Source: Paenarthrobacter sp. JL.01a
GTDB taxonomy: Bacteria; Actinomycetota; Actinomycetes; Actinomycetales; Micrococcaceae
Direction: 5' to 3'
Length of the DNA: 64,000 bases
Assembly (NCBI RefSeq): GCF_025452095.1
Contig: NZ_CP104877.1
Coordinates: 2,418,001-2,482,000 of the forward strand
Shown here: piece by piece, positions 22,284 to 25,034 of the stretch
How the letters are laid out: every line of letters starts with the position of its first letter
Position numbering within the stretch: position 1 is the stretch's first letter
Notes under the pieces: model-generated
What the model saw: the letters and a program-made list of their open reading frames with translations, nothing else
Told to the model about the DNA's origin: nothing
The model's database searches: none
Made by a program: the position numbers and the translations under genes

Positions 22284-24812
22284 CTAGGCAGGAACGATGT
22301 TCACCAGTTTAGGTGCCCGCACGATCACGGTGCGGATGCCACGGCCGTCCAGTGCGCGCTGCACGTTTTCCGAAGCCAAGGCGAGCTCGCGGAGCTCGTC
22401 TTCGGCGACGTCAGGAGACACTTCCAGACGATCACGAACCTTGCCTTGGACCTGGACCACGGCAGTAACGGTGTCCTGGACCAACAGCGCTTCGTCGTGG
22501 GTGGGCCAGCCGGCGTTTGCCACGGATGCCGGATGCCCGAGGGCGTTCCAGAGATCCTCAGCAGTGTACGGAGCGAACAGGCTCAGGATGACGGCAACAG
22601 CTTCGACTGCCTCGCGGACGGCGGGGTCCGCAGCGCCTGCACCGGAGTCAATGGTCTTGCGGGTGGCGTTGACCAACTCCATGAGGCGTGCCACAACGAC
22701 GTTGAACTTGTTGTTGTCCAGGAGCTCGGCAGCGTCGGCAATGGTCTTGTGGGTCACCGTGCGCAAAGCACGGTCGCCCGTGGCCGGGTCGACACCGGGC
22801 TCGCTGCTGACGTCCTGGCCAAGGCGCCAGGCACGGGCCAGGAACTTGGCCGAACCCGACGGCGATACATCCGCCCAGTCGACGTCGTCTTCCGGTGGGG
22901 AGGCAAAGACCATGGTGAGGCGGACGGCGTCGACGCCGAACTTGTCCAGCTGCTCACCGAGGTCCACGCCGTTGCCGAGGGACTTGCTCATGGCTTTGCC
23001 GCCGTTGAGCACCTGCCCCTGGTTCAGGAGCGCAGAGAACGGTTCGTTGGCCTCGATCAGTCCAATGTCCTTGATGACCTTGGTGAAGAAGCGGGCATAC
23101 AGCAGGTGCAGGATGGCGTGCTCCACGCCGCCCACGTACTGGCCCACGGGCATCCAGTCATTGATCTTCTCAGGATCAAAGGGGCCCTCGGTGTACTGGG
23201 GCGATACAAAGCGCAGGAAGTACCAGGAGGAATCCACGAAGGTGTCCATGGTGTCCGTGTCGCGCTGGGCAGCACGTCCACAGTTGGGGCATTCAACGTT
23301 GACCCATTCGACGGCGGCGGCCAGCGGGGAGGTCCCCTTCGGTGCCAGCGCTTCGCCACGCAGGTTGTCGGGAAGCCGGACCGGCAGCTGGTCATCGGGC
23401 ACGGGTACTTCGCCGCATTCACCACAGTGGATGATCGGGATGGGGGTGCCCCAGAAACGCTGACGGCTCAGCAGCCAGTCACGCAGCCGGAAGTTGACGA
23501 ACTTTTCGCCGGTTCCGAGCTTTTCCAGGATCTGGATGGCTGCCGGGATGGCTTCGGCCTTGGACAGTCCGTCCAGCTCGCCGGAGTTGATGAGCGTGCC
23601 TTCGCCAGCGGTAGCCACACCGGTCTCGGCCGGGTTCTCGTCGCCGGTTTCAAGCACAGGGCGTACGGGCAGGTCGAAGGCCTTGGCGAAGTCGAGGTCG
23701 CGCTGGTCGTGGGCGGGCACCGCCATGATGGCGCCGGTGCCGTAGTCGGCCAGCACGTAGTCCGCGGCCCACACCGGCAGCTTTTCACCGTTGAGTGGGT
23801 TGATGGCGTAGCGGCCGGTGAAGACGCCGGTTTTCTCGCGCTCGGTGGACTGGCGTTCGATCTCCGAGAGGGCCTTGACCTTCTCGCGGTACGCCATCAG
23901 TTCGTCGTGCTGCTCAGGGGTCACCAGATCCAGCGCAAGGTGTGCGTCAGCTGCGACGACGAAGAACGTTGCGCCGTAGAGGGTGTCGGGACGGGTAGTG
24001 AAGACGGTGACTTCGCGCTCGGCCCGGTCTTCCGTGGCTTCGATGACGAAGCGCACGTGGGCACCTTCGGACCGGCCGATCCAGTTGCGCTGCATGGCCA
24101 GAACGCGCTCGGGCCAGTGGCCCTGCAGCTGGTCCATATCCTCGAGCAGGCGGTCGGCGTAGTCAGTGATCTTGAAGTACCACTGGTTCAGGGACTTCTT
24201 GGTGACCGGCGTGCCACAACGCTCACAGGCACCGTTGACTACCTGCTCGTTGGCCAGGACGGTGAGGTCCTTGGGGCACCAGTTGACCGGCGAGTCCTTG
24301 CGGTAGGCCAGTCCGCGCTCGTAGAAGCGCTTGAACAGCCACTGGGTCCACCGGTAGTACTCAGGGTCCGAGGTGTGGATGCGGCGCGACCAGTCGGCCG
24401 AGATGGCGTAGCGCTTGAACGATGCCGCCTGGGTGTCGATGTTGGCATAGGTCCACTCGCTGGGGTGGGCGTTGCGCTTGATGGCCGCGTTCTCGGCGGG
24501 CAGGCCGAAAGAGTCCCAGCCGATGGGGTGCAGGACGTCGAAGCCCTTCTGGCGCAGGTAACGTGCGACGACGTCACCCATCGCAAACGCTTCGGCGTGG
24601 CCCATGTGAAGGTCACCGGAAGGGTAGGGGAACATGTCCAGGACATAGCGGCGTTCGCGCGAGCCGTCGTCGGCAGGCGTGAAGACTTTGAGATCCTCCC
24701 AGACCTGCGGCCACTTGGCTTCCATCGCAGCGAAGCTGTAGACGCCTTCTTCAGGCGCTTCGGCTGCGGCTGTCTGTGCTGTTCCGGTCTCTGTCTCCGG
24801 CTGAACGCTCAC
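22284..24812 (-). CDS. leuS: Leucyl-tRNA synthetase
   Basis: Class I aminoacyl-tRNA synthetase charging tRNA-Leu. Visible: the HIGH-type motif [11 protein letters not shown], a large editing (CP1) domain including [19 protein letters not shown], the KMSKS motif as [11 protein letters not shown], and a C-terminal anticodon-binding domain ending in [12 protein letters not shown]. The GTG at 24812 ([10 protein letters not shown]) has AGAGGG upstream and gives 842 residues; the frame is open to 24896, which would run into the leader terminator hairpin. A 5' leader with a Leu-rich mini-ORF and terminator hairpin lies just upstream, suggesting leucine-responsive attenuation. Confidence 0.97.
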
Positions 24813-24874
24813 TGCTGCCCTCTTCTGTTCTTCGATGGCGGTATTGCCTCCTGCTGCGGCCCGGAATGCCCCGG

Positions 24875-24905
24875 ACACACAAAAGCCCCTCAACAATGGA
24901 GGGGC
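24875..24905 (-). terminator. Leader terminator (attenuator) upstream of leuS
   Basis: On the minus strand GCCCCTC, loop CATTGTT, GAGGGGC form a perfect 7-bp GC-rich stem directly followed by TTTTGTGTGT. It ends about 60 nt before the leuS start and lies downstream of the leader peptide, so it can stop transcription before leuS. The plus strand has no T-tract, which fixes the orientation. Confidence 0.8.
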
Positions 24906-24906
24906 G

Positions 24907-24933
24907 GCCGCACGGCTGATAAAGCCGGGCGGC
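24907..24933 (-). promoter_or_regulatory. Leader hairpin 1 between leader peptide and attenuator
   Basis: Minus strand GCCGC-C-CGGCT, loop TTATC, AGCCG-T-GCGGC: two 5-bp GC-rich stems with one internal C/T mismatch. The 5' base of the stem overlaps the last base of the leader peptide stop codon, so a ribosome at the stop would block it. One nucleotide separates it from the terminator stem. I could not identify an alternative antiterminator pairing by eye. Confidence 0.65.
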
Positions 24934-24959
24934 TAGCTAAGCAGAAGGATCGCACGCAT
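24933..24959 (-). CDS. Putative leucine-rich leader peptide MRAILLLS of leuS
   Basis: An 8-codon ORF: ATG CGT GCG ATC CTT CTG CTT AGC TAG, with three consecutive Leu codons immediately before Ser and stop. It has no Shine-Dalgarno sequence. A TATTGT -10-like hexamer (24966-24971 complement) ends 6 nt before the ATG, so transcription would start at or near the A of ATG, giving a leaderless mRNA, which is common in actinobacteria. Position, codon content and the following hairpins match classical ribosome-mediated attenuation leaders. Translation is inferred, not shown. Confidence 0.65.
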   Translation of the reverse strand: MRAILLLS

Positions 24960-25034
24960 AGATCTACAATAGCGCACGATCCCCCAGCCCAGTCGCATTG
25001 AGCGGCTTAGGGAAGGCCAGCTCACTGACGCCGT

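Follow-up and report, generated by a model that had tools for sequence, protein, structure and literature searches.

Attenuators upstream of leuS were predicted in two Streptomyces in 2005 (PMC1262725), and the leaderless start of the S. lividans TK24 leader peptide LeuL2, MRAVRLLLSEPR, was mapped in 2021, in a leader that also has a hairpin and a uridine stretch (PMC8079986). The M. tuberculosis ilvB1 attenuator (PMC13236596) and the Corynebacterium ilvB-II motif (PMC10272879), both tested with reporters, share with the leader described here a small ORF with branched-chain codons, a hairpin and an intrinsic terminator, but they control ilvB and not leuS, and an antiterminator competing with the terminator is drawn in both papers. 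The LEU element of actinobacterial leuA (PMC1262725) also comes with a leaderless MR..LLLS leader; its Leu codons precede a hairpin by 4-5 nt, and this hairpin is followed by TGTCCGG. Unlike the leuS leader, it comprises one hairpin and no typical terminator, and its Leu codons are described as pairing with the Shine-Dalgarno box, a pairing that fails here. T-box leaders also place a synthetase gene under leader-RNA control by tRNA charging, whereas the present leader has no T-box and would sense through codons.

The idea of a leuS leader is already known from Streptomyces; its wide distribution, its spacing rules and the missing antiterminator are new here. No published report for Arthrobacter, or of a wide distribution, was found in the open-access literature, and a synthetase attenuator reported only for Streptomyces in the papers found is here extended to a leader conserved over much of Actinomycetota.

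Architecture of the leuS leader

The analysed DNA (the window) is a 64,000-nt stretch of Paenarthrobacter sp. JL.01a (GCF_025452095.1, NZ_CP104877.1, positions 2,418,001-2,482,000 of the forward strand). An earlier note on this stretch had proposed an attenuator-like leader with a run of Leu codons in front of leuS. The features of the locus are as follows.

24972-24976, minus strand: extended -10 element TGCGC, from column counts (consensus TGCG[C/G] directly upstream of TANNNT)
24966-24971, minus strand: -10 hexamer TATTGT, read from the sequence, 6 nt before the ATG
24933-24959, minus strand: leader mini-ORF ATGCGTGCGATCCTTCTGCTTAGCTAG (MRAILLLS*), probably leaderless, conserved with leuS
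24939-24947, minus strand: run of three Leu codons, CTT CTG CTT, the last of which (24941-24939) is the proposed sensing codon
24907-24933, minus strand: hairpin H1, GCCGC C CGGCU UUAUC AGCCG U GCGGC, beginning in the stop codon
24885-24905, minus strand: terminator hairpin T, GCCCCUC CAUUGUU GAGGGGC, a perfect 7-bp stem, 1 nt after H1
24875-24884, minus strand: U-rich terminator tail TTTTGTGTGT, read from the sequence; T-rich tails are conserved among leaders
24870-24876, minus strand: TGTCCGG at the end of the terminator tail, conserved among leaders
24847-24855, minus strand: AGCAGGAGG, complementary to the Leu codons (CCUUCUGCU), a genus-level feature of uncertain significance
22284-24812, minus strand: leuS, leucine--tRNA ligase (TIGR00396, 971 bits), with a GTG start at 24812 that is conserved in related genomes

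On the minus strand, the mini-ORF (ATG CGT GCG ATC CTT CTG CTT AGC TAG, 24959-24933) begins 6 nt past TGCGC-TATTGT (24976-24966) and is succeeded by H1, 1 nt, T, the tail TTTTGTGTGT and leuS. The earlier reading of a TATTGT (24971-24966) placed 6 nt before an 8-codon ORF with three consecutive Leu codons is exact in the sequence. The GC-rich, two-part hairpin said to overlap the stop codon corresponds to H1 (24933-24907), the perfect 7-bp terminator stem to T (24905-24885), and the downstream gene is indeed leuS.

The gene upstream of the leader is glpK, by family match, and has its own long hairpin at 25106-25027, on the far side of the leader promoter. This near-perfect inverted repeat lacks a U-run, and its centre, CCCGCTTCGCGGACGCCCGAAGCCG, was found in the loci of three other genomes (L003, L263 and L266). 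A mobile repeat inside the hairpin was rejected, CCCGCTTCGCGGACGCCCGAAGCCG being single-copy in the home genome. Rfam returned no family above threshold in the window, its sole weak match (mir-63, far below threshold) coinciding with this large hairpin, and no T-box match upstream of leuS even at E up to 1.

Conservation and distribution of the leader

Upstream regions of leuS were gathered through four genome searches, one collection scan and 80 further stretches. The resulting set across Actinomycetota comprises 152 distinct leaders, with members from Micrococcaceae, other Micrococcales families, Streptomyces, Streptosporangium, Nocardioides, Marmoricola and others; the leader was not seen in the named loci of Microbacteriaceae, Kocuria, Yaniella and Tessaracoccus. 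All 54 same-genus leaders read carry the mini-ORF, which is identical (MRAILLLS*) in 45, while in five the stop codon is lost and the ORF extends into H1. Majority identity over these 54 leaders was 98% in the mini-ORF columns versus 41-44% in the DNA upstream, so the mini-ORF is not due to chance. Peptide residues outside the Leu codons vary freely between genera.

The Streptomyces-like members of the set encode the known LeuL2 peptide. Both versions of the leader share the gene, the leaderless start codon, near-identical codons (ATGCGTGC..CTTCTGCTTAGC), a hairpin right after the Leu run and a terminator with a U-tract. The ORF described here stops before H1, whereas the Streptomyces ORF stops inside the hairpin, and an antiterminator hairpin is named in PMC1262725 but none is detectable here. 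As in a LeuL2-type leader, a mini-ORF with consecutive Leu codons and a start that its spacing suggests to be leaderless lies directly upstream of leuS, a hairpin at the ORF end is followed by an intrinsic terminator, and one covariance model spans both groups.

Aligning the relatives' leuS upstream regions, a check named in the earlier note, gave a conserved Leu run and stems with compensatory changes. The RNAalifold consensus of 40 diverse leaders contained just two hairpins, H1 (8 bp) and T (6 bp). Across the two hairpins, 52 double-changed cells were counted against 13.8 in shuffles, none of the 500 shuffles scoring as high, and the signal was gone in a control in which the pairing partners were slid. 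Eight base pairs in all changed on both sides, among them five of H1's eight; in T, 97% of cells were paired and compensatory changes were present. H1 varies widely in length with its ends fixed. Taken alone, the 91-nt leader is predicted to form H1 and T, but its fold exceeds that of shuffled sequences only moderately (z -2.05), so the case is carried by the comparative evidence.

The home genome was searched by covariance model, family and pattern. The covariance model built from the leaders had a single match in the 4.4-Mb genome, at this site (83 bits, E 3.8e-17). Run on a phylum sample, the model retrieved leuS leaders and weaker matches before leuA (L287, L291), ilvB (L288, L290, L294) and leuS-like genes of other families (L286; L293 by eye). 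Two weak matches, L289 and L292, were set aside, as no branched-chain gene lay downstream in the frames read.

The distance between the -10 (TANNNT) and the start codon is 6 nt almost without exception, as expected if transcription begins at the A of the ATG. Column counts over 135 leaders gave T 0.77, G 0.81, C 0.78 and G 0.90 at -17 to -14, and no -35 conservation. This combination of -10 spacing, TGCG and no -35 has the anatomy of a leaderless transcript, and the promoter spacing places the putative start at the A of the ATG. The possibility of a leaderless leader mRNA, raised in the earlier note, thus gains support from the 6-nt spacing and from the mapped leaderless Streptomyces homologue (PMC8079986).

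Spacing rules and the last Leu codon

The distance from the last Leu codon to H1 is 4-5 nt in 136 of the 152 leaders. At this last codon, CUU accounts for 82% and CUA for 9% (weighted), versus a CUU share of 12% among the Leu codons of six ORFs in the window. The two preceding Leu codons are mixed (CUU 28% and 24%), and the CUU/CUA concentration is found at the last position only, where CUU is probably a slow codon. The presence of the last Leu is partly built into the set, since the search required a Leu codon; the codon bias and the distance to H1 are not. Where Leu runs have decayed, the first and last Leu are often kept (L-P-L, L-N-L, L-R-L), or only the last (MNPKRNLV). The gap between H1 and T is 0-2 nt in 150 of the 152 leaders, and the span from the last Leu codon to T ranges from 24 to 67 nt among leaders having H1.

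One leader, L120, has no H1: T itself begins 5 nt past its Leu codon, which would put the 5' strand of T directly under a stalled ribosome. Two leaders with the same genus code (L122 and L123) have the same H1-less look by eye.

In one Micrococcaceae group (L036, L209, L213, L215 and L220), the promoter, mini-ORF, H1 and T are kept with a single Leu codon (MNPKRNLV-like) and H1 at 8 nt rather than 5, a decayed or retuned sensor.

The heptamer TGTCCGG is exact in 71 and near-exact in 27 of the 152 leaders. It is kept at the tail end in most of them although transcribed only on read-through, and a search for its pairing partner found none.

Ribosome masking and the search for an antiterminator

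The effect of a stalled ribosome was modelled by ensemble folding, with an assumed footprint of 13 nt that begins at the A-site codon. Placed on the last Leu codon, the ribosome opened the base of H1 (0.98 to 0.03), while with a ribosome on the first Leu codon H1 stayed closed (0.98). This contrast holds for footprints of 11-14 nt; with a +16 nt footprint, the first Leu codon also half-opens H1. The earlier expectation that a ribosome stalled on the Leu codons leaves H1 free to form therefore stands for the first codon and fails for the last.

The pairing probability of T was 0.96-0.99 in every state, with H1 open or closed, and 0.9995 for the leader in the window, so these folds lend no energetic support to an effect of H1 on T. 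The mutually exclusive structures that the earlier note suggested folding for were not detected, H1 and T coexisting.

Two elements of a trp-type attenuator are present, namely three conserved Leu codons before a leucine--tRNA ligase gene and an intrinsic terminator (T, covarying and with a T-rich tail) between leader and gene. The third, an antiterminator pairing mutually exclusive with T, was not detectable across the 152 leaders by three tests: ensemble folding with ribosome masks left T unaffected, an anchored scan for covarying 5-bp helices gave no covarying alternative helix, and duplex energies showed the potential pairings of T's arms with upstream RNA to be weaker than in shuffled sequence. 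That no clear antiterminator pairing could be seen had already been remarked for this locus, and the remark proves right and general. In 16 leaders, long read-through folds no longer contained T when the last Leu codon held the ribosome, but the replacement structures differed from leader to leader. No competing pairing was found in this leader or in ten Streptomyces leaders, save a slight decrease when a ribosome occupies the stop codon.

Proposed mechanism and alternatives

The conservation of the Leu codons, promoter spacing, hairpins and association with leuS supports the earlier assignment as an attenuator-type leucine leader. We consider it likely that the leader, carried on a leaderless mRNA, attenuates leuS transcription in a ribosome-dependent way, and that H1 and T would act together as a tandem-hairpin terminator. 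RNA polymerase would start at the A of the mini-ORF ATG and a ribosome would begin translation at once. With ample leucyl-tRNA, the ribosome would pass the Leu codons, terminate and leave; H1 would then close, T would form right behind it, and most transcripts would stop within the U-rich tail. Under a shortage of leucyl-tRNA, the ribosome would stall on the Leu codons and, on the last of them, 5 nt before H1, would cover the 5' strand of H1 and hold it open. If H1 and T act as one terminator, an open H1 would weaken T and allow more read-through into leuS. The leader would thus probably raise enzyme output when leucyl-tRNA runs short, a direction of regulation deduced from its architecture.

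A tandem terminator that a stalled ribosome would disable from its upstream end is the simplest fit to the bias at the last codon, its 5-nt distance from H1, the 0-2 nt between the hairpins and the leaders without H1. In M. smegmatis, paired hairpins are more efficient terminators than single ones, according to work cited in PMC8355165, and the related M. tuberculosis ilvB1 leader responds to starvation via its codons and terminator (PMC13236596). A point against this mechanism is that a starved ribosome would often stop at the first Leu codon, where H1 is closed.

In the main rival, which we regard as unlikely, H1 antagonises T: H1 would form and hinder T while a ribosome sits on the first Leu codon, whereas one at the stop codon would cover the 5' strand of H1, opening it so that T forms. 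This order of events matches the textbook and is argued by the authors for the M. tuberculosis ilvB1 leader (PMC13236596), and the closed H1 under the first-codon mask agrees with it. However, H1 and T occupy separate stretches and are both present in the consensus fold, T is equally probable with or without H1, the special codon at the last Leu position is left without a reason, and the H1-less L120 would have no switch. Control of translation, as for the LEU element of leuA, would instead have the Leu codons pair downstream and hide the ribosome-binding site until a ribosome stalls. The pairing of CCUUCUGCU with AGCAGGAGG (24855-24847) exceeds shuffled sequence within the genus (mean z -1.76) and barely does so outside it (z -0.32), and AGCAGGAGG lies 34 nt before the leuS start. 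The Leu-codon/Shine-Dalgarno duplex itself is weaker than in shuffles (-8.4 versus -9.8 in 55 genus members), on which control via the leuS ribosome-binding site was rejected. The TGTCCGG shared with the home-genome leuA leader would fit such control, but the covarying intrinsic terminator would have no role in it, and we hold it to be very improbable. Hardly credible is a leader without any switch, with T an ordinary terminator and the mini-ORF a by-product, or with a functional peptide: T is predicted to form in every state tested, but leuS is accompanied by conserved Leu codons, promoter spacing and H1, glpK has its own large hairpin beyond the leader promoter, and the peptide outside the Leu codons is free to vary.

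Returning to the tandem-hairpin terminator, we tentatively extend it, with some doubt, to a ribosome-operated terminator that needs no antiterminator, in which the stalled ribosome would force open the upstream one of two adjoining hairpins. The order control codon, 5 nt, hairpin, 0-2 nt and terminator might then be a general design of actinobacterial leuS and ilvB leaders, of which some leuS leaders and leuA would have a single-hairpin version. If read-through hinges on H1 and not on an antiterminator, ribosomes would here control termination more simply than in the textbook trp scheme, with consequences for how the ilvB and leuA leaders of these bacteria are understood. The fixed rules, a CUU/CUA Leu codon 5 nt before H1 and 0-2 nt between H1 and T, make the mechanism testable.

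Related leaders in the home genome

The home-genome leuA (L303), about 400 bases beyond the low end of the window, is preceded by a leaderless-type leader, MRAEMLLLSCRGEA*, whose Leu codons lie, by eye, 4 nt before a single hairpin with TGTCCGG after it. From their sequences, the leuA and leuS leaders of this genome look related. Before ilvB (L295), the leader MITFVTVGVVVLTKRVA* has, also by eye, a CTT, 5 nt, a hairpin and then a terminator. The leuS spacing thus recurs before ilvB and, with a single hairpin, before leuA. In the ilvB leader, the loop of the first hairpin contains GGTAACGAA, a perfect complement of the ORF start TTCGTTACC.
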